Shown: piece after piece, positions 25,860 to 58,183 of the stretch
How the letters are laid out: each line of letters starts with the position of its first letter
How positions within the stretch are numbered: position 1 is the first letter of the stretch
Assembly: GCF_907164915.1 (NCBI RefSeq)
Contig: NC_061870.1
Coordinates: 24,589,348-24,653,347 of the forward strand
Source: Impatiens glandulifera
Taxonomy: Eukaryota; Streptophyta; Magnoliopsida; Ericales; Balsaminaceae
Length of the DNA stretch: 64,000 bases
Direction of reading: 5' to 3'
Notes under the pieces: model-generated
Seen by the model: only the letters and a program-made list of their open reading frames with translations
Databases searched by the model: none
What the model was told of the DNA's origin: nothing
Program-made: the position numbers and the translations under genes

Positions 25860-27158
25860 ATGATGCAATTTACGGAGACAACCTTTCTCTCCACCCAAAA
25901 CAACCAATTTCTCAATACCGGTTTTCCGGCTTTCCCCACCGCCGTCACTCCCCCACCGCCGCTGCCGCAACCCAAACCTCTTGAAAATTGCATGGAGCAG
26001 CTTTTAGTTCATTGTGCGAACGCAATCGAGAGTAACGATGCTACACTTTCTCAGCAAATTCTTTGGGTTTTAAACAATATCGCTCCTCCAGACGGAGACT
26101 CCAACCAACGACTCGCATCCGCCTTCCTCCGTGCCCTAATTACACGAGCCGCCACCTGCGGTTCCAGTAAACTCCTGTCTGCGGTTGCGGCAGCTTCTTC
26201 AGCCGCGGAAACTATCGAGACACATAGGTTCTCCGTCATAGACCTGGCTGCCTTTGTAGACCTCACTCCCTGGCACCGGTTCGGTTTTACAGCTGCAAAC
26301 GCAGCCTTATTGGATGCTGTTCTAGGGTTTCGAGTTATCCACGTGGTTGACCTAAGTTTGACCCACTGCATGCAAATCCCTACGTTAATCGACTCCATAG
26401 CCGCCCGGCGTCCGGAGGGGCTGGCTCTGGTGAAACTAACGACGGTGGTGGGTTCTGGCCAGGGAACACCGCCGTTGCTCGACCTCTCTTACGAGGAGTT
26501 AGGGTTGAAATTGTCGAATTTCGCTATGAGTAGGAATATCACTTTGGAATTCACCGTGGTTAAATCGGACCCATCCGACGGGTTCTCATCGTTAATCGAT
26601 CACCTCCGAACAACCCAACGAAATCAAAACGAAGCTTTGGTGGTGAACTGTCAGATGATGTTGCATCGGATACCGGAAGAAACTGTTTCATTTTGTCACC
26701 GTACGATGTTCTTGAATTCTCTACGAGGTTTGGAACCGACCATCGTTATCTTGGTGGACGAGGACGCGGACTTCACATCGAATAATCTCGTGACTAGGTT
26801 AAGATCGGCGTTTAACTATCTATGGATTCCGTTTGATACCATAGACACTTTTTTGCCCAAGGGGAGCAAGAAGAGACAATGGTACGAGGCTGAGATATGT
26901 TGGAAGATCGAGAACGTGATCGCGAGAGAGGGGAATCGGAGGGTGGAGAGACAAGAGACGAAAGGAACGTGGGGACAGAGGATGATGGCTGCGAATTTTC
27001 ATGGGGTAGGGTTTGGGGAGGAGGCGGTTAAGGAGGTGAAGGGGATGTTGGAAGAACATGCGGCTGGATGGGGGATGAAGAGAGAAGAGGATGATCTTGT
27101 GCTCACTTGGAAAGGTCATGATGTTGTTTTTGCAACTGCTTGGAAACCTGCAATGTAA
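25860..27158 (+). CDS. SCL32: GRAS transcription regulator, SCARECROW-LIKE 32-like
   Basis: 432 residues in a single coding exon. After a short Pro-rich N-terminus (1-40), the GRAS domain fills the rest: a leucine-rich region from ~48 (MEQLLVHCANAIESNDATLS), the VHIID-equivalent VIHVVDLS at 159-166 followed by LTHCMQIPTLIDSIAARRPE, a second leucine-rich region with LHRIPEE at 268-274, a PFYRE-equivalent region near VDEDADFTSNNLVTRL, and a SAW end (FATAWKP). LTPWHRFGFTAANAALLDAV is characteristic of the SCL32 branch as I know it. GRAS proteins act in the nucleus as transcriptional co-regulators. Length fits the family (~410-440), and there are no breaks. The first ATG (MMQFTETTF) is used; the second Met would lose nothing. 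Confidence 0.92.
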   Translation: MMQFTETTFLSTQNNQFLNTGFPAFPTAVTPPPPLPQPKPLENCMEQLLVHCANAIESNDATLSQQILWVLNNIAPPDGDSNQRLASAFLRALITRAATCGSSKLLSAVAAASSAAETIETHRFSVIDLAAFVDLTPWHRFGFTAANAALLDAVLGFRVIHVVDLSLTHCMQIPTLIDSIAARRPEGLALVKLTTVVGSGQGTPPLLDLSYEELGLKLSNFAMSRNITLEFTVVKSDPSDGFSSLIDHLRTTQRNQNEALVVNCQMMLHRIPEETVSFCHRTMFLNSLRGLEPTIVILVDEDADFTSNNLVTRLRSAFNYLWIPFDTIDTFLPKGSKKRQWYEAEICWKIENVIAREGNRRVERQETKGTWGQRMMAANFHGVGFGEEAVKEVKGMLEEHAAGWGMKREEDDLVLTWKGHDVVFATAWKPAM

Positions 27159-36738: not shown

Positions 36739-37264
36739 TGTTAGATAAATTCATACCGGCTCAAATAAACCTAACTTAAACAAACTTCCTACGCAGGAAC
36801 AAGGAACCGGACCGGATGAACAAAAGAAAACCAACTGAAGAAACCGAACCGGTCAAGCTACCAAACCGATCAAGAGTATTCGGTACGTGACCGCACAGAG
36901 GAAGGATCGGCCAAAGCCTAAAAGCCAGATCCATCAAATAGCCGATCAACCCTCAAGACAAACATAACCGGAATAAGCCCGGTCACTTCACTATCAAAAG
37001 ATATTTGGCCAAGTCAAGCGGCCAACCTAGGCCAAGTCAAGAGGCCGACCTGCACAAGAAGACACTTTGGGTATCTGTTGAGAATGATACCAAAGGAACA
37101 GACTGAATACTTCCATATCCATGCAAGTCTGAGGAAAGACTGTAGGCTGCAGAAAACAGTACTACCGGATCTTTCCACTTCGGGATAAGCCAGAAAGGAA
37201 ATCTTCAAAGTACAGACAACTGTCCAAACAGACAGTGCCTACATTGAGTAAAAGACAAACCCGG

Positions 37265-37352
37265 CAGGTTTGCTTTACAGACCGGCAGGTCTGAAACAGG
37301 ATGCCAGGTCTGAGATTGACCGTCAGGTCTGAGGAGAAGACCGCAGGTCTGA
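37265..37352 (+). promoter_or_regulatory. U3 tandem motif array, candidate enhancer
   Basis: Five copies of CAGGTYTG(A) at 21, 19, 19 and 20 bp spacing, ending 76 bp before the TATA box. The arrangement is like the repeated U3 enhancer boxes known in tobacco Tnt1/Tto1, but the motif is different. It is repeated in the 3' LTR at +12572. Confidence 0.6.
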
Positions 37353-37427
37353 GACACTGAATCACTGCACCGCTGACCAGCCAATCAGATTCAAGGCTTC
37401 GAAATATGACCGTTGGCATATTTCACC

Positions 37428-37435
37428 TATAAAAG
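37428..37435 (+). promoter_or_regulatory. LTR TATA box
   Basis: TATAAAAG, also at 50000-50007 in the 3' LTR. A transcription start near 37460 is expected. Confidence 0.7.
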
Positions 37436-38083
37436 GAGGCAGTTGCAGAAGAGTAAATGCGGGACAAAAAAAAAAGCAGATATTGAGCAGTTACTAAGTG
37501 AGACAAACATTAAGTGCATTTACTACAAGTGATAACAGTGTGGTATTCTAAGAAAGCCTAAGTGCTAAATTCTAAGTGTGTGTTACAATTTCGGTGTAAA
37601 TTGTAAGAGTGTTATCGAGCAGGAAATAAGTCTCGATCGGATTGTATTTGTATTCCTTAGTGAATATCCTTCTCGCGGTTTCGAGAGGAAGGGGTGACGT
37701 AGGAGTTTTTATCTCCGAACATCCATAAAACTTTGTTGTGTTATTTACTTTCTGTTGGCTTCCTTACATAACCGACTAATCTAACAATACCGCTCAGAAC
37801 CGAATCTACATTAACCACATCAAGCATCCAGATTACCGAAACCGACCCACCATCCTTCAAATCATCATCATCCGAAACCGACTCCGCCTATCATACACGT
37901 GTACCGCTTCAACTTGAAAGCAAACCTCTTCCGCGCTTGAACCTAGTTCAAGGGTTTGTGACAGGTTGTGTAGTATTGAAACCCCGGTGTTAATCTCTAA
38001 CAGGATTAATCACCACCCTACGAGTCAGAACCGCTAACCGGTCCAACCCCCGGTCCACCAGCGGCGACCTAGATCCTAACAAT

Positions 38084-38095
38084 TGGTATCAGAGC
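38084..38095 (+). other. Primer-binding site (tRNA-iMet)
   Basis: TGGTATCAGAGC two bases after the 5' LTR, complementary to the 3' end of initiator tRNA-Met as in most plant Copia elements. Confidence 0.93.
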
Positions 38096-38120
38096 AGTTA
38101 GTTTCAATATTCAAGCAAAC

Positions 38121-39968
38121 ATGTATCAAGATAGGCCTCCAATGCTAGAAGGTGATGACTTTGCCAACTGGAAGGCACGCATGCACCTACATCTAGTCAC
38201 CTTGGATGATGAAATGGAATTCGTTCTAACCGAAGGACCGATAGTCATTGATAAAGACAGAAAAGAATGGACAGCTGATGATAGGAGAAGGAACAATCTG
38301 GACAACCATGCAAGAAACCGGATCTCCAACAGCGTGGACAGAAATACATACTGCAAGATCAGAGACTGCAAAACCGCGAAGGAGACTTGGAACACGGTCA
38401 TCCAGATCTTTGAGGGAAATGAAAGGACAAAGGAGAACAAAATAATGGTGGCCACACAGAGGTTTGAAAGCATCAAAATGAAACCAGGGGAAACTATGAA
38501 GGAATACAGTGACCGGTTCACTGGTGTATTAGATGAGTTGGCAAATCTGGGCAAGAAGTACGACAACAAAGAGGTCATCATGAAGGTTTTGAGGTCTCTT
38601 CCAAGTGCCTGGGATATAAAGACGATGGTCATGAGAGAATCAAAGAGCCTACGCAAGATGAAATTATACGATGTATTCGAAGATCTTAAGGCATATGAGT
38701 TCGAGATGAATTCCAGAACTGAAGAGGAAGTCTCGGCCTCAACGTCAACCAGAGCACTGTTCACATCTACGGAACCGGCCGCACCTGTTCCTGCTCCTAT
38801 ATCTACATCTGCACCGGTACCGATTCCTGCACCTGCACCGATCAGAACCGCCGAACAGTTTACTGAGGACGCCATGGCAATGCTTGCACAGAAGTTTGGG
38901 AGGTTCATGAAAAGGAGCCAACCGACAAACAACTACTATGGTGACAAATCCAATGTAAGATGCTATAACTGTAACTGTATGGGACATTTTAAGTGGGAAT
39001 GCAGGAAACCAAGGAGAGATACACAGAAACCAGACTACCAAAATAATCGGAACAACTATCAACAAACCGGTGAAGGAAGTGAAGTACCGAAAGCACTGAT
39101 AGCCGATGATGGAGGAAGCCTATGGGCTCACAGTGACAGTGACGATGACCTCACATGTCTCATGGCAAATGAGGAACAGGTATTTGACTCTCCTTGTGAT
39201 GAATTTACTAAAGATGAGTTATATGAAGCATTGAATGACATGGTAGAAGAATATAAGAACCTATTGACCATGTTACCTAAGCACCTCAACATCAAAACCG
39301 ATCCCATAGTACCTATCCCAGTAGAACCAGAGGTACCCATCACAACCGAACCGGAAGCCATACAACCTGATGATACTCATACCCTAGAAACCGAATTAGA
39401 CCTTAAGATCGAACAACCTAGTGAGCCGACTAGAGACCTAACCGAGAAAGAGAATGCCAGATTTCAGTATACGATGGCCGCCTATAGGAGATCTAGCGAT
39501 ATAGTAAAGAACCTGAATAAAGAATACAGGCATCCACGTTGTAAGAATGGCCTAGGATACACAGAGAACAGATCTAAAAACCGAAAATCCATATGGAAAG
39601 CAAAGCTTACAAAAGGAAACCTTCCCTTTATAAAATTCCTTAAGAGCATCTGTACAGCTGAAGAAGAGGAGACCGCGTATTATAGGGAAGAAAAGACAAA
39701 GTATGACTATGTTGGCCCAACCGATTCATGGCTTGACCTTGAGAAAAGGAAAGCAGAAATCCTCAACTATAAGAAAGACTTCCCTGAACCACGTAGATCA
39801 AACTATAGATCATCAAACCAAAGACCATCATCATTTAGGTCATCTGTAGGGAAACCGAATTACATCAGACCAAGTGTGAGGAGAACAGTTGAAACCTTAG
39901 CCAAGAAGACCGTTCGATTTATCAAGGTTTGGGTACCTAAGGGACTAATCGCATGTGGACCCAAGTAA
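38121..39968 (+). CDS. gag: Gag polyprotein of Copia element
   Basis: 615 residues from the first ATG after the primer site. The N-terminus RPPMLEGDDFANWKARM is typical of UBN2/SIRE Gag, followed by the helical capsid-like core (TAKETWNTVIQIFEGN, MKPGETMKEYSDRFTGVLDE). A Pro/Ala-rich linker precedes the zinc knuckle CX2CX4HX4C at C281, C284, H289 and C294. The C-terminal third is acidic, then basic, and ends KVWVPKGLIACGPK. Gag packages the RNA into cytoplasmic particles. The TAA at 39966 separates it from pol, which lies in another frame. Confidence 0.93.
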   Translation: MYQDRPPMLEGDDFANWKARMHLHLVTLDDEMEFVLTEGPIVIDKDRKEWTADDRRRNNLDNHARNRISNSVDRNTYCKIRDCKTAKETWNTVIQIFEGNERTKENKIMVATQRFESIKMKPGETMKEYSDRFTGVLDELANLGKKYDNKEVIMKVLRSLPSAWDIKTMVMRESKSLRKMKLYDVFEDLKAYEFEMNSRTEEEVSASTSTRALFTSTEPAAPVPAPISTSAPVPIPAPAPIRTAEQFTEDAMAMLAQKFGRFMKRSQPTNNYYGDKSNVRCYNCNCMGHFKWECRKPRRDTQKPDYQNNRNNYQQTGEGSEVPKALIADDGGSLWAHSDSDDDLTCLMANEEQVFDSPCDEFTKDELYEALNDMVEEYKNLLTMLPKHLNIKTDPIVPIPVEPEVPITTEPEAIQPDDTHTLETELDLKIEQPSEPTRDLTEKENARFQYTMAAYRRSSDIVKNLNKEYRHPRCKNGLGYTENRSKNRKSIWKAKLTKGNLPFIKFLKSICTAEEEETAYYREEKTKYDYVGPTDSWLDLEKRKAEILNYKKDFPEPRRSNYRSSNQRPSSFRSSVGKPNYIRPSVRRTVETLAKKTVRFIKVWVPKGLIACGPK

Positions 39969-40008
39969 ATGTGGGTACCAAATAGTTGTAAATATGTAAT
40001 TTTTGCAG
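39927..40008 (+). other. Possible 82-nt intron joining gag to pol
   Basis: AAG|GTTTGG at 39927 and TTTTTGCAG|GAT ending at 40008. Removing 82 nt (1 mod 3) deletes the gag stop and fuses ...RFIK to DPKKRLG... in frame. Unspliced RNA would give Gag only. The alternatives are frameshifting, or a recent disabling mutation. No transcript data. Confidence 0.35.
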
Positions 40009-43000
40009 GATCCAAAGAAACGGCTAGGAAACTCCGAATGGTTCTTGGACAGCGGTTGCTCCAGACACATGACCGGAAATAGCAATTTGATAATCGACAT
40101 CAGATCAGTAACCGGTGCTCCAATCACTTTCGGTGACAACTCTAAAGGTAAAACCGTGGGCAAGGGTAAGATTGTTCATGGTAACCTAACTATTGACAAC
40201 GTACTTCTAGTTGAAAACCTACGTTTTAATCTACTTAGCATTAGTCAGATGTGTGATGCCGGATACACAGTAGAATTCCTTAAACATGCATGCTTAGTTA
40301 AGAACTCTCAAGGAATAGTACTACTAACCGGAAATAGGATAGGTAACATCTACAAGGTAGACTGGAAAACTAGAATAGAACACCCTATATGCATGATAGC
40401 TAAAACTGATCAAACCTGGCTATGGCACAAAAGATTAAACCATCTAAACATGAAAACCTTAAACTACATTCGTGGTAAGAAACTAGTTGAAGGCATCCCG
40501 GATATAGTATTTAACCAGGATAAGGTTTGTTCAGCATGCCAGATGGGTAAACAAACTAGGTCATCGTTTAAGAGCAAAGGAAATCTCCAATCTAGCCGAT
40601 GCCTAGATCTTCTTCACATGGATTTATTTGGACCAATTCAGGTCATTAGTCTAGGCGGTATGCTCTACACCATGGTAGTTATTGATGATTATTCTAGATA
40701 TACATGGGTAATATTTTTACCATCTAAACGTGAAACGGTATCAAACCTAATCAACCTCCTTAAGCGTTTGCAAAATGAAAAGTCAACTCGTATAAATTGC
40801 ATTCGAAGCGATAGAGGTACCGAATTTACTAATAGCACGTTAACTGCATATCTTGATGAATCCGGCATTAGACACGAGTTGTCTAGTGCTAGGACTCCTC
40901 AACAAAATGGCCTGGCCGAGAGAAGAAACCGGACTCTCAAGGAAGCCGCACGGTCCATGATAGCCGACTCCGGCATTGCTCAGAAATATTGGGCTGAAGC
41001 TATCAACACTGCATGCCATACACAAAATCGGTCTCTTATTAACAGATTTCACAACAAAACACCATATGAGGTTTATTTTAATAGAGTTCCTAAACTTAAA
41101 TACCTCAGGATTTTCGGCTGTAAATGTTATATTCATAATAATGGTAAAACCCAACTCACTGCTTTTGATGCAAAGACCGACACCGGCATTATGCTAGGAT
41201 ACTCGTCGGTAAGTAAAGCATATAGAGTATATAACAACAGAACTGCAACCATGGAGGAAACAATTCACGTTGTTTTCGATGAATCGGTTGAAAGCAACAC
41301 TGCTTCATGCTTTGATCTACATAACAGACTGGAAAATAACGATATTCATTCTGATAGCGAAGATGAGACCCCGGTCTTCAGGGGATTTGTCCATGACCTA
41401 ATGGGTAATATTGATACCCAGCCGGATCAAGCTGTTTCACAGCAGGAAGCTGACACTTCGGTCCAACCCGAGGAAGCCGGTCAGTCTGACAATCTTGGTC
41501 AGCCTACCGACATGTCTAGCCTTGATCAATTAAACGGTAACTCGGTAGACACCCTTGAACTGAATCTCAGAAGAAACAGTAAACATCCTCCTGAGCAAAT
41601 TATAGGTGACCCTTCAGAACCTGTTCGAACTAGGAGTCAACTTCTGGAAGGATATTTTAACTCTGCTTTTATATCCCAGATTGAACCGAAAAGAATAGAT
41701 GAAGCATTGTCAGATCCGGACTGGATCTTGGGAATGCAAGAAGAACTAAACCAGTTCGAGAGTAGTAAAGTCTGGTACTTAGTTCCCAGACCGAAAGATA
41801 AATCGGTCATAGGAACAAGATGGGTATTCAGAAACAAACTCAATGAGGACGGTCTGGTCACGAGGAACAAAGCCAGATTAGTGGCTCAAGGCTACAAACA
41901 GGAAGAAGGCATTGACTTTGAAGAGTCATTTGCTCCTGTAGCCAGGATTGAAGCCATTAGGATTTTTCTTGCATTTGCTGCTTTCAAAAATTTCAAAGTT
42001 TTTCAAATGGATGTTAAAAGTGCATTTTTGAACGGTGATATACGTGAGGAAGTGTACGTTGAACAGCCACCCGGCTTCAAAAATGCTGCACTTCCAAACC
42101 ATGTATACCGGCTAAACAAAGCTTTATACGGTCTAAAGCAAGCACCAAGAGCCTGGTATGATACACTGACCGCATTCCTAGTAGAGCATGATTTCACCAT
42201 CGGTTCAGTGGATAAGACCTTGTTCAAATTTGAAAAGAAGGAACATATCCTACTTGTTCAAATCTATGTAGATGATATTATCTTTGGTTCCACCGATCCA
42301 AAGCTTTGTGACAAATTTTCAAAAATGATGACTGACAAATTTGAAATGAGTATGATGGGAGAATTAAGTTTCTTCCTAGGTCTTCAGGTTAAGCAACTCA
42401 AGGAAGGAACATTCATCAGTCAACCGAAATATACCAAGGAGCTTCTAAAGAAATTCGGTATGGACACCTGCTCCTCGGCGGCCACTCCAATGAGTTCATC
42501 CATTAAATTGGACAGAGATGATGAAGGGCAATCGGTAGATCAGATTGCATACCGGGGCATGATCGGTTCCCTGCTATATCTAACAGCAAGTAGACCGGAC
42601 ATCCTGTTTGCAGTTGGTGTGTGTGGGAGATTTCAAGCAAATCCAAAGCAGTCTCATTACACAGCCGCAAAGAGGATACTGAAGTATCTAAAGGGCACAC
42701 CTGATGTCGGTCTGTGGTACCCAAAGGACTCATCATTCAATCTAACGAGCTACTCAGACGCAGACTATGCAGGCTGCAAAATTGACAGAAAGAGCACCAG
42801 CGGAACATGTCAGTTCCTCGGTGACCGACTGGTATCATGGCATAGCAAGAAGCAGACATCCGTGGCTACATCAACCGCAGAAGCTGAATACTTGGCGGCC
42901 GGAAGTTGCTGTTCTCAACTTCTCTGGATCCAACAGCAACTGAAGGATTTCGGCATCACAGCCGAAGAATCCCCAATTTTCTGTGACAACACAAGTGCCA

Positions 43001-43230
43001 TTGCGATTACATACAACCCGGTTCTCCATTCCAGAACCAAGCACATCGACATAAGGCATCATTTCATTCGAGAGCATGTCACGCTGAAGCATATCCGGCT
43101 GGAATACGTACCCACCGATCAACAAGTAGCCGATATCTTCACAAAGCCTCTACAGGAAGCTAAGTTCTCTCAATTTAGACTTACTCTCGGTTTAACCGAC
43201 ATCAATCAGATCCTTCCTAAGGACACTTAA
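40000..43230 (+). CDS. pol: Pol polyprotein (PR-IN-RT-RNaseH) of Copia element
   Basis: Open from 40000 without an ATG. Numbering from codon 40003: protease DSG at 16-18 ([13 protein letters not shown]), GAG-pre-integrase [13 protein letters not shown] with CSACQMGK, integrase catalytic D207, D270 and E306 (DX62DX35E), RT from [11 protein letters not shown] with [13 protein letters not shown] and YVDD at 755-758, and RNase [10 protein letters not shown] at 917 on, ending with [12 protein letters not shown] and VADIFTKPL. All catalytic residues are present with no stop over 1,075 codons, so the enzymes look active. The frame is +1 relative to gag, so expression needs splicing, frameshifting or reinitiation. 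Confidence 0.95.
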
Positions 43231-43749
43231 AAGGAAAACCGGCTTCGACAGATAAAACAGGTAGTTCTTCTTAAGCTGCTGACTTTTGAATTCTCAAGAT
43301 GCCTATGGAAGAACCGCCCAGCTCATCAGACAGAGTAAACCGACCGGCTACTTGGTGGAAACACCAACTAACCGCATCTGGATGAACAACTGATGACTGA
43401 CCGGTTCGGAAGCAGGTCATCCCAGATTATTTGAATTTCACAGATATGGAACAACTACCAATGTTTATAGATATCTGTTCTGAAATGTTGCCTTTTCAAA
43501 GAAAACTGGTCGCGCCTAAAAAGACGTGAAGATCTTTTGATATCTTTCACGGTTCAGGCCTATGACCGACACCTAGACTGCAAATATACCCATTTTGGTG
43601 AAAAACCTTTTATCCTGCAGTTAATACATGTCATTACATTTAATGTCTGGACAATAGGATAGCCCCTAAACTAGTATTTAAGAGAGGGCAACACTCACCA
43701 CAAAAACTCACAAGTCACAAGAATACTCTCTCACTAAGGCAAACTAACC
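43231..43749 (+). promoter_or_regulatory. pol-ORF A spacer with candidate promoter
   Basis: 519 bp with no ORF. A weak TATA-like TATTTAAG at 43675 lies 75 bp before the ATG of accessory ORF A, followed by an A/C-rich leader. Confidence 0.4.
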
Positions 43750-44484
43750 ATGTCTCAATTCTCAAACATTCTCCAAGTAGACTTTGAATCCTGTACCGGT
43801 ACCGAACACTATGAAGTGTATCGGATGATTAAGAAGTTAGAAGATACTGGTCTCCAGTATTTTCTGGATGATAAGCAAATCATCTATCCTGCATCCGTTA
43901 TGGAATTCTACTACAATGCCAGAGTATTCCGGGGAACACCCCATTTCGAGACCCACATCCAATCCAAAGTTGGGGGGGTAATTTTCGACTTCACCGAGCA
44001 GGACTTTGGTCGGTGTTTCAGTCTGCCCAAGCAAGGGATCACAGATCTCAATCCTCCTGCGGACATTAAGGCTGAGGTATCCCTAGCCTTTGCCCGGTCG
44101 GATGAACCTGTCAATGACCACGGTTCTAAATCTCTCCTGAGGGCTGAGTACCAGCTCCTCAATGATGTGTTAGGAAGGGGCATCTTTGGAAGAGATGTCA
44201 CTAACACCTACTGCGTGGCGAGTTTCAATATGATGGCCGCCATCATTACTGGCACACCGGTAAACTGGTCCCGGGTGCTGTTCGACACCTTAGTTTGGAT
44301 GATTAACGTCCAGTCAGTCGGTCTCATTCCCCAAATGAGCACCCTCCTGGTGGAACTCGGTGTTCCAACTTGCCCTGGCGAAAGCCTGAACCAGGCTCAG
44401 GTGCTAACTAGGGAAATGACCGACTCTTTCTACAGTCGGTTTGAAAGAGAATGGAGGAGGAGAAACTTCAACCCTCCTCGTTAA
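43750..44484 (+). CDS. Accessory ORF A of retroelement, unknown function
   Basis: 244 residues, beginning MSQFSNILQVDFESC. It shares with ORFs B and C a domain of ~210 residues: VDF near the start, TGLQxFLD, an EFxxNA block, a +/- LP..G.. block (FSLPKQGITDL), a LLRAEYQLLxxV helix, and MMAAIITGTPVNWSRVLFDTL. The pattern resembles the 'putative plant transposon protein' / Athila ORF1 type of domain; I cannot confirm membership. There is no signal peptide or transmembrane helix, so it is not a typical env. It ends with a basic tail ERRRRNFNPPR-like. Function unknown. Confidence 0.8.
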   Translation: MSQFSNILQVDFESCTGTEHYEVYRMIKKLEDTGLQYFLDDKQIIYPASVMEFYYNARVFRGTPHFETHIQSKVGGVIFDFTEQDFGRCFSLPKQGITDLNPPADIKAEVSLAFARSDEPVNDHGSKSLLRAEYQLLNDVLGRGIFGRDVTNTYCVASFNMMAAIITGTPVNWSRVLFDTLVWMINVQSVGLIPQMSTLLVELGVPTCPGESLNQAQVLTREMTDSFYSRFEREWRRRNFNPPR

Positions 44485-44967
44485 GTCACTTCATCTGGCA
44501 TCCGGTCGTTTTGCTGCATGTACCGGATGCATCATTAACCATATCGGCCTCATCCATGTCCACTTCGGTTTTATTTGTGCTTTCCTTAACTTCATCATTT
44601 ATGTATGTCATTTTCGGTGTTGTCTCTACCGTCTTCGGTCTCCATCTAATATATATCATTATGTGTTAAATGCATTTAATGAGATAATCCAATTTAATGA
44701 GATAACTCCCAACCACCTGCACATTTAATTCCCAACTAATCTGGTTACTTTCCAACAAACATTTACCTCGAGATCTGCAAACCGCCACTTCCCAATGCAC
44801 TTTGGAAAGGAAAAGATTCTTTCCCTTAATAAGACAAAACCAACCATCAATGCTCTGATTTTCCCTCCAAAAACGATTCTATATAAGGAGCCATCCTCCC
44901 TTCACTTTCTCACATCCACAATCACTTGCACTTCTCTTGAATTTCTCTCTCTCTCTACATCATAATC
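44485..44967 (+). promoter_or_regulatory. Spacer with promoter-like sequence before ORF B
   Basis: TATATAAG at 44880-44887 lies 88 bp upstream of the ORF B start, followed by a pyrimidine-rich leader (TTTCTCTCTCTCTCT) like that of plant genes. Upstream it holds Thr/Ser-rich open frames without conservation. Confidence 0.5.
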
Positions 44968-45675
44968 ATGCCAAGCCGAACTCTGGGTAATTTTCTAAGT
45001 GTTGACTTCGGCTCATGCTTGGCCGAATGGGATTATGACCATCCAAAGAAACACATGTTTGAAAGCCTCATTGTTACCGGTCTTCAAGCCTTCCTTGACG
45101 AATCCGGTCCCATACTGACTGAGGATGTCAAGGAATTTTTCAGAAATGCTGTCAACTGGGGAGACCGCATTGTAACCACTGTAAGGAATCATACCTTCCG
45201 GCTTGATGAAGCCGAATTTGCCACCCTCTTCAATCTGCCCAAAGAAGGGTTCTCTGACTTTCCGGCATTGGAGGGCACTGATGAATACTACTATGTGTAC
45301 CGCTGCTTAGGAACCTTCGAGACGGTGGAAACCTATGGGTTAAAAACCCGCCTCGGTCGAAGCACTCAGCTACTTCTTGAGATTGTCACTCGGTCCATTC
45401 TGTGCCAATCTGTAAATCAGCGGTTTTCAAAGAATACCTATAATATGATGACCCACATCTACAACCACACGCCCATCAATTGGGCAGCGGTCCTCTTTCA
45501 AACTTTGAGGAAAATGGTGCGGACCAAGAAGGGTCTCGACTTTGCACCCCACATCAGTAGGCTGATTCTCAAGTACCGGCCAGATTTTGGACCGGGCACA
45601 CCGGCATCCCCCTCAAATATTCTCGATAGAGATGCCGTGGTGGAAAAGTACTCCAAAATGGTGTTTACTGATTAA
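44968..45675 (+). CDS. Accessory ORF B, paralogue of ORF A
   Basis: 235 residues, beginning MPSRTLGNFLSVDFGSC. The same domain order as ORF A: TGLQAFLD, VKEFFRNAV, FNLPKEGFSDF, GLKTRLGRSTQLLLEIVTRS, NMMTHIYNHTPINWAAVLFQ and LRKMV, ending in a GPGTPAS segment also seen as GPGVG in ORF C. Sequence identity to A is low, so the duplication is old, yet the frame is intact. No catalytic motif is recognised. Confidence 0.8.
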   Translation: MPSRTLGNFLSVDFGSCLAEWDYDHPKKHMFESLIVTGLQAFLDESGPILTEDVKEFFRNAVNWGDRIVTTVRNHTFRLDEAEFATLFNLPKEGFSDFPALEGTDEYYYVYRCLGTFETVETYGLKTRLGRSTQLLLEIVTRSILCQSVNQRFSKNTYNMMTHIYNHTPINWAAVLFQTLRKMVRTKKGLDFAPHISRLILKYRPDFGPGTPASPSNILDRDAVVEKYSKMVFTD

Positions 45676-46168
45676 ACATCTTTATTTAAATGTCTTCCTT
45701 TTGATCCTATCGGTTTCCATTCTAATAAAATACTGTTTCAGTTTTGATCGCTTCTCTTTACTCTTTGCATCTATCTAACATAACCGGCTTCACATCATTC
45801 GTATCCGGTTTCATAAAATATGCTTAAAACTGTTAAACACCGATCAATCAAAAATCTGAAACACTATTAGAAACCGATCTGCCATTCGGTCTCAAAGAAA
45901 TGATTGCGTGACCGATGACATAGGCAAAGAACTTTGGAGGGAAAATCTCCCGCCCAAAGACACCGCACACCGTTTCGCACGAAACCACGTCCTTTCGTTT
46001 TGGAGGGAAATTTCCCGCCCATTCTTGATGGGACGGTTTGGCTTCCAAACCGTGCCTATAAAAAGGGGGCCTTCGTCATATTTTTCATTCTTACATAAAC
46101 TCACTTTATCTCTCTAAATTTCTAAACTCTTTGAAGCCGATCTCTTTCATTTTCAAACTCCTCAAAAC
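45676..46168 (+). promoter_or_regulatory. Spacer with strong promoter-like sequence before ORF C
   Basis: Contains TATAAAAAG at 46057-46065, 112 bp before the ORF C start. Just upstream is a perfect 9-bp inverted repeat with a 3-nt loop (46033-46041 / 46045-46053). Two near-identical boxes lie at 45933-45955 and 45999-46020, each with GGAGGGAAA followed by TCCCGCCC. The second contains TTTCCCGCC (46011-46019), a consensus E2F site. Confidence 0.55.
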
Positions 46169-48994
46169 ATGGGTCGTGATGCGGCATTGTTCAAATTATA
46201 CTCTCAAGTGGACTTTGAGGAGATTCGGCAACATGGAACAGCCGAGGCAAAAGAAGTAATTAACCGGCTGATTGACACCGGTTTGGAACATCTACTTGAC
46301 GGTCCTCACATAATATACAAGGAAGCGGTAGAAGAGTTCTTCAAAACCGCAACCATCTCCTACGACAGGATCCTCGCAACGGTGTGCGGTTCTCAAGTAG
46401 AGATTACCGAAGCAGTAGTGGCCGAGAGTTTGCGTCTCCCAACTACCGGCATGGATGCTATGGAAGAGATGGACGAGGATACATATAGAACAGCCTGCCA
46501 ACTTCTATCGGCAACCAACGAACCGCTTACCACATCCGGAAAGAAACAGACGCTGAGACCGGAGCTCATTCCGGCATGTGACGTCTTTGCCAGGGCGATC
46601 CTGGCAAGGGGAGGAAACTTCAGTAATCTGACCAAAGACAAGATCAAAATGATTTTTCGTCTGATGGATGGAACAGAGATTAACTGGGCAAGGGCGGTGT
46701 TCAGCAACCTTATGGAAATGGTGAGACCGGCCTCGGACAGGTCTTGGGGATACGCCGTACAACTCGGCAAGATATTCTTACATCTGAAGATCAAAGTCGG
46801 TCCCGGTGTTGGGATACTAAAACGTAGCATCATCCGATCAAAGCAATTTCTTCCACGAAAGCCGTCGGCTTCCAGCTCCACAGGTGGCCGAAAGAAGAAA
46901 GCCGCAAAGAAAAAGACCCCGGCGAAAGAAAACACCGGAGGGAAGAGAAAAGAAAAGGTAGTTTTCGAAGACCTACCTCAACAAACAGAGGATGAGGAGT
47001 GGGCTGATGAGGAAGCCGAAACAGAGGGAACCGAAAATGAAACGGTCCATGAGGACGATCTCTCGGCTCGGAGTCCGACCGATGCCGAACAAAGCTTCAA
47101 TCCTGAGACCACCGAGGGTGGGGAAGGGAATCATGAGGGAGCCGATAATGAAGGCCTCAGCAGGGAAGAAGCCGATGATGCCGAGGCCGAAAGATTAGCC
47201 CAGAATATCTTTCAGGGCATCATCAGGCGGAATGAGGACGTTATAAACTTATACTTGGAGTGGCATGAGCACCGCTTCAACACGAACTATAATAACATGA
47301 TGACGGACTTGAACCAAGAGGATTGCTTCGCCAGGTTGGAGGACGTAGAGGACAATATCTTAAGCCTCACAAAATCCGGTACCATTCATGAGGTACAGTG
47401 CCGAACTTGCCTACTGATACCGAGAAGTCATCTTCGACAGATAAGAAGGCGTATCAGAAAGATTAAGGAAGAATATGCCGAAGGAGGATCGGTGTCTACC
47501 GTAGCACCGCGAGTAATAGAAAAACTTCAAAAAGGCAAATGGGAAGTACGCCAAGAGATAGCGCGGTTAGAAGCAATTTGCGTTCAGAAACAAGTTCCGG
47601 TGTATACCGCTCCGGTCATCGAAGACTTTCAAATGGACTGGGCATCAACTTCGAGAGAAAACACCGCGACACCGAGGGACATCGAGACTCCGATGCCAGA
47701 AGATGATGAGGTATCGACTCCAAGAACTGTTGAGATATCGACTCCAAGAACAGTCGAGGTACCGACTCCAGGAACTGTTGAGGTACAAACTTTAGAGGAT
47801 GTCGAGGTACCGATCCTGGAAAATGCGGCACTAAACTTGGTGGATGCGGTCACATTAGAAACACCTACTGAGGTTGTTGAAATACTAGACTCCGATGTTG
47901 AGAGAGCCGACCCTAATCAGACCGAGCAGTCCGCTCCCACTCCTCCACCGGCAGCCACCGTCTCAGTTCCCTCTAAGGAATGGATTGATGACCTATTTCA
48001 AAAATTTGAAGTAGTTGTTTCGAAGCGGATTGAGGACCGACTCCGGCAGTTTGACACTTCAATATCAGAGAAGATTGATGACCGCATACTTGACCACAAC
48101 GTCTCCAAGCTTCAACCGCTCAAGGATAGATGCGAGACCGTTTTCGATTCGGCCATGCAGTTCGCCGATGTGACAAAGAACGTTGTGGATTACCATCAAA
48201 CGCGCCTGGAGCAACTTAGCACCGGACTATGGGAAGAGGCCGGTGAGCGAGAAAATTGTGCTCATCATATTTTAGCTCTGGAGAGTCTCACTTCGAAATT
48301 ACAGAAGGATTTCGAACGGGTTGATCCGACAATTGAACGAGTCTCGGTACTGGAAAAGAAAAACGATGATCTCGTGGCCGAAGTAAAGGCACTAACTGAG
48401 CAGATGGCCGAAATTCTGAAGGCCAAGGAAAACGCAGATGCCGCGGCCATAGAGGCCGATGCTCTAGTTGCAAAGAGGGTCCAAGAAAGGCTGGACGCCG
48501 AAGCCAGCAAGGACAAAGAGCCGCAGCGAGTATCTCAGATGACCGACGAAGAAATAGAGGCCGAAAGAGTAAGAAGGGGCGAGGCCTTATTCCCAGGATA
48601 TGCTGAGAAAGCGGCCAGACTGGCTGCGGACGATGCCGCACGACTGGAACGGGAAGCACGAAGGCTGGCCGGCTTTGCAAAGGAAAATGAGAAAAAGAAG
48701 AAGGCAGCCACTTCCGTTTCAGCACCAGCAACTTCCGTTTCAGCACCGGCAGCCTCAGCTTCGGCATCAAAGAAAAGAAAGAGGCCGGCTAGTAAGAAAG
48801 TTCGAATTCTCGAGACGCTCAACACGATCTCTGAACCGGCAGAAACGGGCCCCTCGCAGCAAGCCGACCTAATCGAGGAGGAAGTCGTAGAACAGTTGCG
48901 GTCCCGATCAAAAAGGCCACGATCTTCCCAGCCGCAACCGCCACCACCACCGAAGAGAAAGAAGAGTGCCTACGAATTCACAGACTCAGAATAG
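46169..48994 (+). CDS. Accessory ORF C: shared domain plus long coiled-coil tail
   Basis: 941 residues. 1-220 is the domain of ORFs A and B (VDFEEIRQHG, TGLEHLLD, AVEEFFKTATISYDRI, LRLPTTGMDAM, LRPELIPACDVFARAIL, GTEINWARAVFSNLMEMV, GPGVG). Then follow a basic segment with GGRKKKAAKKKTPAK, an acidic stretch, a region with VxTPRTVE-type repeats (~510-550), a long heptad-like helical region (~620-840), Ala/Ser repeats (ATSVSAPA), and nuclear-signal-like KKRKRPASKK and PPPPPKRKKSAYEF at the end. The basic motifs and coiled coil suggest a nuclear, self-associating protein; this is an inference. It has no membrane segment and no recognised enzyme. Confidence 0.8.
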   Translation: MGRDAALFKLYSQVDFEEIRQHGTAEAKEVINRLIDTGLEHLLDGPHIIYKEAVEEFFKTATISYDRILATVCGSQVEITEAVVAESLRLPTTGMDAMEEMDEDTYRTACQLLSATNEPLTTSGKKQTLRPELIPACDVFARAILARGGNFSNLTKDKIKMIFRLMDGTEINWARAVFSNLMEMVRPASDRSWGYAVQLGKIFLHLKIKVGPGVGILKRSIIRSKQFLPRKPSASSSTGGRKKKAAKKKTPAKENTGGKRKEKVVFEDLPQQTEDEEWADEEAETEGTENETVHEDDLSARSPTDAEQSFNPETTEGGEGNHEGADNEGLSREEADDAEAERLAQNIFQGIIRRNEDVINLYLEWHEHRFNTNYNNMMTDLNQEDCFARLEDVEDNILSLTKSGTIHEVQCRTCLLIPRSHLRQIRRRIRKIKEEYAEGGSVSTVAPRVIEKLQKGKWEVRQEIARLEAICVQKQVPVYTAPVIEDFQMDWASTSRENTATPRDIETPMPEDDEVSTPRTVEISTPRTVEVPTPGTVEVQTLEDVEVPILENAALNLVDAVTLETPTEVVEILDSDVERADPNQTEQSAPTPPPAATVSVPSKEWIDDLFQKFEVVVSKRIEDRLRQFDTSISEKIDDRILDHNVSKLQPLKDRCETVFDSAMQFADVTKNVVDYHQTRLEQLSTGLWEEAGERENCAHHILALESLTSKLQKDFERVDPTIERVSVLEKKNDDLVAEVKALTEQMAEILKAKENADAAAIEADALVAKRVQERLDAEASKDKEPQRVSQMTDEEIEAERVRRGEALFPGYAEKAARLAADDAARLEREARRLAGFAKENEKKKKAATSVSAPATSVSAPAASASASKKRKRPASKKVRILETLNTISEPAETGPSQQADLIEEEVVEQLRSRSKRPRSSQPQPPPPPKRKKSAYEFTDSE

Positions 48995-49310
48995 GGACTA
49001 TCCTTCTTTTTCTTACTTACCTTAGTATTTTTGCTTAGCACTTTCCGGTTATCTATGAATATATAAAGTTATTTTTGAATACCGGCCTTATTTTGCATTT
49101 CTACTTGGTTTTGATAATTTTAAATAAAATAATCAAAAAGGGAGAAATTGTTAGATAAAAGATAGAGATTCATCCAAAACCCCTCCCCCAAAATTTTTCG
49201 AAAAACTCTCTAACTCTTTTTCAAAATCGGCCAAACAAAACAACCGGCCTACGGTCGCAAACTTACATAATTTTGATAATTTTAAATAAAATAATCAAAA
49301 AGGGAGAAAT
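48995..49310 (+). other. 3' non-coding region with duplicated polypurine tract
   Basis: The 50 bp at 49271-49320 (ttttgataattttaaataaa ... through the polypurine tract aaaaagggagaaat and the first ten LTR bases) occurs identically at 49109-49158. The functional tract ends at 49310. Confidence 0.85.
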
Positions 49311-50653
49311 TGTTAGATAAATTCATACCGGCTCAAATAAACCTAACTTAAACAAACTTCCTACGCAGGAACAAGGAACCGGACCGGATGAACAAAAGAA
49401 AACCAACTGAAGAAACCGAACCGGTCAAGCTACCAAACCGATCAAGAGTATTCGGTACGTGACCGCACAGAGGAAGGATCGGCCAAAGCCTAAAAGCCAG
49501 ATCCATCAAATAGCCGATCAACCCTCAAGACAAACATAACCGGAATAAGCCCGGTCACTTCACTATCAAAAGATATTTGGCCAAGTCAAGCGGCCAACCT
49601 AGGCCAAGTCAAGAGGCCGACCTGCACAAGAAGACACTTTGGGTATCTGTTGAGAATGATACCAAAGGAACAGACTGAATACTTCCATATCCATGCAAGT
49701 CTGAGGAAAGACTGTAGGCTGCAGAAAACAGTACTACCGGATCTTTCCACTTCGGGATAAGCCAGAAAGGAAATCTTCAAAGTACAGACAACTGTCCAAG
49801 CAGACAGTGCCTACATTGAGTAAAAGACAAACCCGGCAGGTTTGCTTTACAGACCGGCAGGTCTGAAACAGGATGCCAGGTCTGAGATTGACCGTCAGGT
49901 CTGAGGAGAAGACCGCAGGTCTGAGACACTGAATCACTGCACCGCTGACCAGCCAATCAGATTCAAGGCTTCGAAATATGACCGTTGGCATATTTCACCT
50001 ATAAAAGGAGGCAGTTGCAGAAGAGTAAATGCGGGACAAAAAAAAAAACAGATATTGAGCAGTTACTAAGTGAGACAAACATTAAGTGCATTTACTACAA
50101 GTGATAACAGTGTGGTATTCTAAGAAAGTCTAAGTGCTAAATTCTAAGTGTGTGTTACAATTTCGGTGTAAATTGTAAGAGTGTTATCGAGCAGGAAATA
50201 AGTCTCGATCGGATTGTATTTGTATTCCTTAGTGAATATCCTTCTCGCGGTTTCGAGAGGAAGGGGTGACGTAGGAGTTTTTATCTCCGAACATCCATAA
50301 AACTTTGTTGTGTTATTTACTTTCTGTTGGCTTCCTTACATAACTGACTAATCTAACAATACCGCTCAGAACCGAATCTACATTAACCACATCAAGCATC
50401 CAGATTACCGAAACCGACCCACCATCCTTCAAATCATCATCATCCGAAACCGACTCCGCCTATCATACACGTGTACCGCTTCAACTTGAAAGCAAACCTC
50501 TTCCGCGCTTGAACCTAGTTCAAGGGTTTGTGACAGGTTGTGTAGTATTGAAACCCCGGTGTTAATCTCTAACAGGATTAATCACCACCCTACGAGTCAG
50601 AACCGCTAACCGGTCCAACCCCCGGTCCACCAGCGGCGACCTAGATCCTAACA
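49311..50653 (+). repeat. 3' LTR
   Basis: 1,343 bp, identical to the 5' LTR except at 49800, 50048, 50129 and 50345. It is followed by target duplication CTTTA (50654-50658). TATA box at 50000. Confidence 0.97.
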
Positions 50654-52048: not shown

Positions 52049-54496
52049 AAATTAAAAAACTGTTTTTCTCGACAAATGTTATCGAAAATCCTAGAAAGAG
52101 AGAAAAAAACTCTAGAGATTTTTAAGGAAGCGCGATCGGCACAGGAGGCACATCACGGCACGACGGCACGATAGGCACATACATACGATACGATCGTCAT
52201 GATGATACGATATTGTCTTGAGTCGGAAGTCATCAAATCGGCACCGAAATCACCATTTATCAAAAGAAGCGCGATCGGCACGGGCGACACGATTGGCACA
52301 GACGGCACAACCCGATCTGCACGGACGACACAATATTGTCTTGCTTCATAAGTGAGTCATTAAGTTTCTTTAGTCTAGAGTTTCTTGTGTATTTGTAAAC
52401 ATCGCTGGAATTTGCTCTCGATTGCGGTTTATCTATGATCATTTCTTAGGTTTTTTGCAATTACTTTTTCTTTTTCTTTGTTTCTGTCGTCATGGGGAAG
52501 GGAAAGAACAAAAGTAACAAATCTAAAAAAGTTAGGGATTTTTTGCTGGAAGTAATAAAGGAAGCAGTCGTCAAAGAAATTGAAAAAATTACTGAAGAAC
52601 TTATCAAAGAACAGTAGGATACCAACACAAGTAAGCAATCTGCTCCAACTGCTACAAGGAAAATTCCTATTGAAAATGATGTAGGAAAATATGGGGATAA
52701 TGAAGGAGCTTGGAAGATACGCTATAATGAAAGAGTTAATCTGTTTGGGCTCAAGAATCAGATTACAAAGCTCCTTATGCATGTCAAAAGGGGAGAAATT
52801 ATCATCAATAAGGAGAAAGCACAGCATATTATAATTTAACTCGTCATCTATTATCTTCAAGACTGGAATCTGTTGAAAAAAGAAGAATATGAAGAAATTG
52901 TGCAATGGTCAGTTGCTATAATGAAGGAGTTGATGAAGGCTCCCAAATCTAAGTCATATACTATTAGGAGCAACTCGAGATGAAAAACTAATGAATTTTG
53001 GAAGAACAACAATGCAAAAAAGTCAGAAGATCATGTCTATAAAGGGAAAATCTACTTGGGCAATACACATACAAAAGTGGAGGTATTGAATTCTCAATTT
53101 GAATTTAAATTACCTACTGAAGTAGAGGAAAACTGTATAAAGGAATGAGAAAATGTACTTGTGGGAAACTACATAGAGAAAAACAAAGTATCCTTCTCAA
53201 TTACTAAAGATGCATTGTTAAAGCAATGGGAAGGAAAAGGGCTGGAGAAGATTTCAGCAAATGTCCATGATTTATATTTCCTTAAATTAAAGAAATGATC
53301 TAATTTAGAGGAAATTCTATAAAATGGGCATACATATATAGGATCCATCTATATGAAATTGGAAAAATGGTCTGAAAACTTGAACATATTGAGTAAGCCA
53401 AAAGAAACTACACAGATATGGTTCAAGCTCTCGAATATACTTGTACATATGTACAATTCTGAAATACTTAGTCATTTTGTAGGTTTATTGGGTAGACCAT
53501 TATACATGGATCCAATTACTGAAGGAGGAGAGCACCTATTATTTGCTAAATTTAGCATTAAGGTGCATCCTAGAAGCACACTGCCGAAAAGTATGACCGT
53601 AGTAGACAGAAAAGGAAAACCTACTAGTATGGAAATCACTTATGAGTGGAGGCCAGACATATGCTCTTTCTGCAATACCTTTCAACATGCAAGCCTAAAA
53701 TATAATTTGGTTAAGGAAGAAGATCAGAAAATTCATAAAGGCCAGAAAGTAAATATGCGGGAAAATGAAACAGAGGTTCCTATTTTCAAAGAGGAAAATG
53801 TGGTTAAAGAACATTAAACAGAAGATAAAGAAAATTTTGTACAAGAAGAAAGCAATACGAAGAAGGAGGTGGAACCTCAACCTAATAATGTTGAAGAGAT
53901 AGTTGAGGATTCTTAATCAAATCAAGTTGAAGTGGTTGCTGATAAAAATATAGAGAAAGATACTCGGGTTAATCAAAAGGAAGAAGAGAATTCCAAGGTT
54001 GATACAGAGGAATCCAAAGTTGTTGACGATTCCAAAGCTGAAGTTGAAGGAAATAAAGACAATGATCTCGAAATTTAAGTTGAGAACAACAAGGTGAAAA
54101 GTCCGAAAATCCTGAATAATAATTATTTTTTTCAAATCAGAACAAGTTTATATAAAGAAAAAAATCAAAATGAGAATATGTAGTATTCATCAACCTCTTC
54201 AGTTCATCCCTCTTTCATTACAAGAGGAAGAGGAAGGGGAAGAGGAAAGACAAGGGGAAGAGGAAGACAATATGTTGAAACATCAGGTTGGTATGTAAAT
54301 AAAAATTCTAATTGAGATAATTAGGATTTGATACAGTTTGTAATCTCTGTTTCTTGTATGTTTGAATTCTACTAATCAGGTTCTTTAGGGTCATTTGATT
54401 GTCATCATTTAATAATAGCTAAAAATTGTCTAGCTTTGATTCTTGACCCTCCCACTTTTAGGATTTTAATAAAATGATTTTAACCGTTTTCCCCAA
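52049..54496 (+). mobile_element. Truncated LINE carrying only an ORF1-like region
   Basis: Flanked by AAAAGTCAAG at 52039-52048 and 54497-54506. It holds an ORF1-like reading with DUF4283/zinc-knuckle features and ends in a ttttaataaaatgatttt-type tail. No reverse transcriptase or endonuclease is legible. The target duplication is short and A-rich, so the bounds are moderate confidence. Confidence 0.55.
52491..54316 (+). pseudogene. LINE ORF1-like (DUF4283/CCHC) pseudogene
   Basis: Starts about ATGGGGAAGGGAAAG with a lysine-rich N-terminus and is broken by several stops (for example at 52616, 52837 and 53126). The central open part (53353-53817) reads IWFKLSNILVHMYNSEILSH, GRPLYMDPITEGG, FAKFSIKVHPRS and EWRPDICSFCNTFQHASL: the DUF4283 region and a CX2CX4HX4C knuckle whose last Cys is Tyr. 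The end is TRGRGRGRGRGKTRGRGR-like (54220-54275), an RNA-binding RG tail. Normal ORF1 proteins chaperone LINE RNA. Confidence 0.75.
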
Positions 54497-56992: not shown

Positions 56993-58183
56993 TCAGTTGA
57001 ATGCATCGCATCTGACACGGATGTTACCGTTGGGTCCGGGCTTTCCGGTCTTGACTCCGACACGGCCGAGTTTGGTCATGGCGGTTATAAAGGCAGAGTT
57101 GAATGACTGGGAGCTGGTAGCCCAGGCGTTGACCACCGACTTAGACCTGGAGTCGGTGAAGAGCACTTGGTCGGATGTGAATAATCCCTTTCCTCCCTGA
57201 AGATTCTTGTAGTATGCATTGTCGAATTTTCGGGGCGTGGCTGGATCCATGTTTATTGCTATTCTCGGGTCCACATTCTTCGGGCACATTTGAATCAACT
57301 GGGATGCGTATTGCTTGTTAAGGGTCGGGTCAATCGGGTTGGACTTTGTGAAGTTGTAGATCCGGTTTGAGAATTTGCTGCAGTGGGAGAACCCAATTGT
57401 ATGGGCAGCTATATATATATACAATAATAATAATAATAATAATTTAAAGTCAAGATCCATCCATTAAATAAAATAAAAGATTATATATAATGAAAATATA
57501 GATTAATAATTAATTAGTTTGAACTTACCTGAGAGAGCTATCATGTCGTTTTGATTAAGGCCGTTGGCAGCAAAGAGGGAGTTGAGTTGGTTGAGGTTGA
57601 AGTTCGGATGAGGAAGTTTTCCGGTGACGCTTGCCGCCGTCGACTTAAGGCCGTCCAATCTCCCCAGCTCCACCGCGTAAGATGGCCCTCCGGTCTGCAT
57701 TCATTTTTATAATAAAAATTCATTGATTCAGGAGGAACAACAGGGCAGAACAGAAAAGTGATTCATTACCAAAGCGATGACATCTCTTGTAGCCATGGTT
57801 AGAATGTCGGCGCAGGATACTTTATTCCGGCAACCAGAGACGGCGTCAACTGCGGCCTTGGCCTTGATAACGGTGTCGAACCCATCTCCGGCTAAGGAAA
57901 TGTTATCTGGGTTATCCTTCTCCGCCTTGTTGCTTCCGGTCGATTGAATAATAACGGAAGCGTCGCAGCCCTGAACAAAGCAGTCGTGGAAGAAGAGCCT
58001 GAGAGTGGCCGGAGCTGTAACAAAGGTTTGCTGGAACTTCAGCTGGACGGCCTTCCGGACGATGGATTCAACGTTGGGGCATGTGCTTGCGTAGTAGTTC
58101 TGTTTCAATTGGGCCGAAGCCAGAATACAGAGGCAAGAGAGTGACAGCAATGTCAGAGGAATATTATTATAGAATCGACCCAT
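56993..58183 (-). CDS. Class III secretory peroxidase (PER16/45-like)
   Basis: Exons (minus) 58183-57770, 57694-57529 and 57408-56993, with GT/AG borders, total 996 nt, 331 residues. Signal peptide 1-24 ([13 protein letters not shown]). Catalytic distal R62 and H66 in [13 protein letters not shown], proximal haem-ligand H196 in [15 protein letters not shown], the conserved cysteines from C35 on, and [19 protein letters not shown] and RVRCDAFN at the end. These are extracellular haem enzymes that use H2O2 to oxidise phenolics in cell walls. The wording ([35 protein letters not shown]) is that of Arabidopsis PER16/45 as I know them. Length is normal and no break is seen. Confidence 0.95.
57409..57528 (-). 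repeat. Microsatellite-filled peroxidase intron 2
   Basis: This 120-nt intron holds an (AAT)n/(ATT)n run and a (TA)n run that reaches the 3' splice site itself (minus strand TATATATATAG|CT). Confidence 0.7.

Follow-up and report, generated by a model that had tools for sequence, protein, structure and literature searches.

Three old paralogous genes, candidates for DNA-binding accessory factors, in a young Copia retrotransposon of Impatiens glandulifera

The Copia-type long terminal repeat (LTR) retrotransposon described here lies in a 64-kb window of the Impatiens glandulifera genome (contig NC_061870.1; the window being the whole stretch analysed) and carries three open reading frames (ORFs), A, B and C, between pol and its 3' LTR. 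The three are paralogs that have diverged to saturation of third codon positions while their protein sequence was constrained, and the predicted fold of the C head resembles that of VANC21, a protein of a DNA transposon. We give about an even chance to the reading that they are an old family of accessory proteins, carried by the element and probably nuclear, which are made from internal promoters, bind DNA and act on the element's own non-coding DNA.

A preliminary description of this DNA had reported three open sense ORFs of 244, 235 and 941 codons after pol, sharing one domain and selected over a long time before a recent insertion, and our results agree with it on all these points. By BLASTP, A and B are 30% identical across 232 residues (E 1.7e-27), A and C 28% across 207 (E 5.4e-21), and B and C 31% across 206 (E 1.8e-21). 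Among aligned codons of the three, the match is 0.43-0.55 at positions 1 and 2, while at position 3 it is 0.25-0.29, against 0.25-0.26 expected from composition; with the first two positions matching and the third near chance, the proteins have diverged under constraint. The Pfam lead of the same description held in part. The Transposase_32 (PF20167) profile matches A, B and C at 26.1, 29.7 and 26.2 bits (E 9e-6 to 7e-7), and the C head alone at 29.8 bits; since 26-30 bits fall below the curated cut-off of 45, the three are, by profile score, distant relatives of this family and not members. Beyond its head ORF C continues for some 700 residues, with basic patches at 241-263 followed by an acidic stretch and a tandem peptide repeat (a tandem repeat in the coding DNA), further basic clusters near 426, 842, 868 and 929, a basic C-terminus, and heptad-rich segments at 448-476, 677-707 and 721-762.

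Structure prediction, a check put forward in the preliminary description, was applied to the C head, and the modelled fold matches VANC21 at E near 0.01, a good match though not beyond doubt. By homology to the C head, A and B would have the same fold. Each VANC protein recognises short motifs arranged as tandem repeats in non-coding parts of the element that encodes it, and these places lose methylation (PMC5735166, PMC10398659). An earlier guess, that the ORFs encode nuclear factors acting against host silencing, becomes much more concrete through the fold match, with the effect itself a prediction. The searches at sequence level showed no relationship to VANC. DUF1985 was absent among all six families matched by 14 heads, and likewise among the best 25 of 34 families for 32 proteins; VANC21 was not listed in profile searches of the PDB, nor was any sequence similarity to VANC detected. 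Sequence similarity aside, the two systems resemble each other in the predicted fold of the C head, in being element-borne, in having tandem repeats as a candidate target within non-coding DNA of the element, and in tandem peptide repeats in one region. They differ in that VANC21 belongs to VANDAL21, a Mutator-like DNA transposon of Arabidopsis with one such gene, whereas here an LTR retrotransposon carries three, with predicted activity only.

The best candidate target for the A, B and C proteins is an array of 19-bp tandem repeats in the LTR; from the end of this array to the TATA box downstream of it in the LTR is a distance of about 75 bp. Its core motif CAGGTCTGA occurs eight times in the window on either strand, and all eight occurrences lie in the two LTRs. 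According to the reading we favour, the three proteins would be made from internal promoters, independently of gag-pol, would enter the nucleus and bind DNA through their VANC21-like heads, and would act on the element's own non-coding regulatory DNA, with the 19-bp repeats as the likeliest site, either holding off DNA methylation or raising transcription. A and B are bare heads; in C the basic patches and heptad-rich segments of the tail might serve to form dimers or to bring in partners. We infer these steps, from transcription at the TATA boxes through nuclear location, DNA binding and target to the anti-silencing effect. In sunflower SIRE elements CG methylation is dramatically reduced between the LTRs and CHG methylation stays high, no protein being linked to this pattern there (PMC12844716); by analogy, and in another species, it fits an anti-silencing role in part.

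Are the three genes separately promoted, as the preliminary description had claimed? TATA-type boxes do stand ahead of all three, as listed in Table 1, but separate promotion is read from sequence and is weakest for A. In 2000 dinucleotide shuffles per spacer, with a box sought 60-130 bp upstream, the chance of finding one was 4.1% for A (loose pattern) and 3.4% and 2.6% for B and C (strong pattern), rising with the loose pattern to 7.5% for B and 5.9% for C; the strong pattern is also found within gag and pol, at 39629, 40791 and 41228. These figures leave room for another account, in which the boxes are there by chance and translation of the ORFs uses either the genomic RNA or subgenomic RNAs that start at the LTR and are spliced. 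Splicing and stop-codon suppression are named as modes for other plant elements (PMC2829016), and a single site is expected by chance in 2.6-7.5% of cases, depending on pattern. Against this account, all three ORFs have a box followed by an ATG-free interval, with the ORF start as the first ATG. The whole spacers contain 10, 11 and 5 ATGs for A, B and C, the nearest prior ones standing 107, 118 and 141 bp before the ORFs, that is, 29-32 bp upstream of each box. Moreover, spacers B and C have in common, in opposite orientation and upstream of the box, the 15-mer GATTTTCCCTCCAAA, a length of sharing reached in 0/300 shuffles, and 519 bp separate pol from A. We consider translation from genomic or subgenomic RNA rather unlikely. 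The core of the shared 15-mer, TTTGGAGGGAAA, is present three times in the window when both strands are counted; one copy lies in spacer B and the other two in spacer C. In spacer C each copy is followed by YCCCGCCCA, which makes an E2F-like palindrome, and the second of these units contains the E2F-like TTTCCCGCC. Spacer A is without the shared 15-mer, TTTGGAGGGAAA or the E2F-like units. The candidate promoters of B and C are thus good, and that of A is weak. Two further observations concern these spacers: the E2F-like units at 45933-46021 may hint at cell-cycle-linked expression, and an AATAAA at 45724, about 49 nt after the B stop and inside the element, may serve as a poly(A) signal for B.

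Relatives of the three proteins were sought with a profile built from C, P0001, A and B, against which 7988 candidate proteins were scored. At least 41 proteins matched at E <= 10, seven of which (P0035-P0041) lie above E 0.001; all are Impatiens glandulifera gene models, located on 12 contigs, which we used as a stand-in for element copies, although their splice structures may be predictions. Segments of the C tail are present in all 41 (BLASTP, E 1e-4), and none covers the whole of C ungapped in the BLASTP table. Six carry a piece of an A-type head (P0008, P0009, P0017, P0019, P0022 and P0034), four a piece of a B-type head (P0002, P0024, P0025 and P0026), and the remaining 31 a C-type head; P0019 matches A without a difference along 59 residues, and P0017 shares 95% identity with A along 83. 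Judged from the protein models, these relatives probably lie in elements. Their annotated names are host-like ('cingulin-like', 'titin-like', 'calponin homology', 'myosin heavy chain') or absent, and a batch of such Impatiens names has probably been given in error to ORFs of retroelements. In a tree of 20 heads, three belonging to the window and 17 to relatives picked from the 41 because enough of the head was present to be used, the heads of type A (3 rows), type B (5 rows) and type C (11 rows) each fall on one side of a branch, with support of 98/98, 95/98 and 85/91, the last below the star level of the tool, and with P0025, P0026 and P0030 filling less than half of the tree columns. Since the heads separate in this way, the triplication is most likely older than the subfamilies. 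P0030 also has, at residues 565-648 after its C-type tail, a fourth, distinct Transposase_32-like head, which falls outside the A, B and C groups.

The same gene models raise the possibility of one gene with alternative heads, in which each of the three heads would serve as a first exon that can be spliced to the tail of C, so that a single effector body would come with three DNA-binding specificities. Ten of the 41 models combine a head piece, A-type in six and B-type in four, with the C tail, and by eye two junctions recur, before (G)GRKKK in 7/41 and before PAP(G/P/S)S in 8/41. The first of these corresponds to window position 46883, between CTCCACAG and GTGG, which by a crude ad hoc score is the top acceptor in 46800-47100. 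Gene models can, however, be ab initio predictions; several begin at a methionine inside the ORF (the start of P0019 corresponds to window position 43900 and that of P0023 to 46664), and the heads are cut at varying places, as if predicted around damaged or partial copies. In the copy studied here, A and B have stop codons of their own. We regard alternative heads as unlikely.

Likewise, a role as particle or envelope-like proteins, after the 'env-like' post-pol genes of Sireviruses, which would coat, move or chaperone the particle, would suit the position after pol and the heptad-rich segments of C, and the ENV-like genes of Sireviruses have been reported to contain coiled-coil and transmembrane domains (PMC3414828). 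The evidence from the proteins themselves points the other way. The highest 19-residue Kyte-Doolittle means are 1.42, 0.90 and 1.16 for A, B and C, where membrane segments usually reach about 1.6, so that in agreement with the preliminary description no segment of membrane-level hydrophobicity was found (by hydropathy scan only, no dedicated signal-peptide or membrane program being run). A BFVD structure search gave 0/380 matches at E <= 0.001, with a few capsid or envelope fragments only at E > 1 and probability <= 0.04, and the sole clear fold match is to a DNA-bound protein. An envelope or particle role is accordingly quite unlikely. The ORFs might also be genes taken from the host, or inert passengers that do nothing for the element, an idea favoured by the great heterogeneity of Sirevirus extra ORFs and by a survey that asked whether they have any function (PMC6317226). 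This is very improbable here, as three paralogs are still open with saturated third positions and constrained proteins, and A-, B- and C-type heads occur in relatives at differing identities.

The element itself spans 36739-50653, a length of 13,915 bp. Four mismatches separate its two LTRs of 1343 bp, and a CTTTA target duplication flanks it on either side, and for these reasons it is a young insertion, as previously described; the LTR divergence (K = 0.0030) gives an age of 0.11-0.21 My at rates of 1.3e-8 or 7e-9. The sequence TTGGTATCAGAGCAG after the 5' LTR is, we presume, a primer binding site of the tRNA-Met type. The pol frame is open from 40000, following stops at 39968 (gag) and 39997, and across 39900-40070 the gag and pol frames do not overlap and are offset by one. 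A simple overlap frameshift therefore cannot join gag and pol in this copy, and there may be a lesion between them or an unusual route to Pol.

Table 1. Features of the Copia element, in window coordinates
Feature	Position	Strand	Details
5' LTR	36739..38081	+	1343 bp; TATA at 37428 (LTR position 690)
19-bp tandem repeats	37261..37354	+	4 exact CAGGTCTGA cores, starts 37286, 37305, 37324, 37344
Primer binding site region	38083..38097	+	TTGGTATCAGAGCAG, read from sequence
gag ORF	38121..39968	+	615 aa, PF14223 Retrotran_gag_2
pol ORF from first ATG	40069..43230	+	integrase (rve), then RVT_2 reverse transcriptase, by Pfam
Weak TATA-type box TATTTAA	43675..43681	+	75 bp before ORF A
ORF A	43750..44484	+	244 aa, Transposase_32-like head only
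Shared 15-mer holding TTTGGAGGGAAA	44857..44871	-	ends 9 bp upstream of B TATA box
TATA box TATATAA	44880..44886	+	88 bp before ORF B
ORF B	44968..45675	+	235 aa, Transposase_32-like head only
Two TTTGGAGGGAAA copies, each then YCCCGCCCA	45933..46021	+	upstream of C TATA box
TATA box TATAAAA	46057..46063	+	112 bp before ORF C
ORF C	46169..48994	+	941 aa; head 1-232 plus long tail
Two polypurine tracts	49135..49310	+	AAAAAGGGAGAAATTG at 49135 and 49297; second runs into 3' LTR
3' LTR	49311..50653	+	1343 bp; 4 mismatches vs 5' LTR

Elsewhere in the window we note a 432-aa ORF with a full-length GRAS domain at 25860-27158 (PF03514, E 1.4e-94), a MADS (SRF-TF) piece at 11926-12288, peroxidase pieces at 56993-58183 and, downstream of the Copia element at 53353-53817, a 154-aa ORF with DUF4283, which LINE-type elements of plants commonly carry.

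Among known retrotransposons the element is closest in layout to the Sireviruses (SIRE/Maximus), whose env-like ORF likewise lies in sense between pol and the 3' LTR of a large Copia element, and which it resembles in its repeated polypurine tract (PPT) and in the presence of repeats upstream of a mid-LTR TATA box. The integrase before the reverse transcriptase (rve, RVT_2) and the presumed tRNA-Met-type primer site are Copia-wide and not specific to SIRE. It differs in having three paralogous ORFs rather than one, no membrane segment, and a candidate promoter for each. The hallmarks of the group are several PPTs of the octamer AGGGGGAG near the 3' LTR, from which ToRTL1 and Tnd-1 deviate, and repeated palindromic CGG-CCG boxes upstream of the mid-LTR TATA (PMC2829016). 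Here the two PPT copies, 162 bp apart, read AAGGGAGA rather than AGGGGGAG, and the 19-bp repeats, upstream of the TATA at position 690 of 1343, have by eye the palindromic core AGACC-GGTCT, not CGG-CCG. An internal promoter was hypothesised for Sirevirus ENV, which the authors could not conclusively identify (PMC2829016). In a survey of SIRE elements, an extra ORF 3' of pol (eORF-3'F) was present in 74%, in 19 groups with little mutual similarity, and only ORFs of at least 250 codons were counted (PMC6317226); because of that minimum, A and B would have escaped it. A, B and C, whose profile matches are weak but agree with one another, also recall Transposase_32 proteins, including the 3' additional ORF of sunflower Athila 14, a plus-strand ORF with partial similarity to the Transposase_32 domain and a predicted nuclear localisation signal (PMC11728184). 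Athila 14, however, is a Ty3/gypsy element with one such ORF, whereas this Ty1/copia element has three, each at 26-30 bits against the cut-off of 45. In a literature search limited to open-licence PMC papers, and as far as titles, abstracts and passages show, nothing came up that describes three post-pol ORFs paralogous to one another, or an LTR retrotransposon with a protein of VANC fold.

A more specific form of the reading we favour, a multi-gene anti-silencing system of VANC fold in an LTR retrotransposon lineage, with three heads and three internal promoters, A and B possibly spliced to the C tail, and each head reading a different LTR or spacer motif, is possible but tentative. The function of extra ORFs in plant retrotransposons and the expression of Sirevirus post-pol ORFs are stated as open questions (PMC2829016, PMC6317226), and with VANC as the example, whether Tork and Athila elements possess extra ORFs with products that influence their epigenetic landscape was left to investigate (PMC12844716). 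A VANC-like predicted fold in three retained paralogs, together with candidate promoters and a candidate target, makes both open questions directly testable. If the reading is true, it would explain the purpose of at least some Sirevirus 'envelope-like' genes, and a single fold would connect VANC genes, which belong to DNA transposons, with genes found after pol in Copia and Athila elements.

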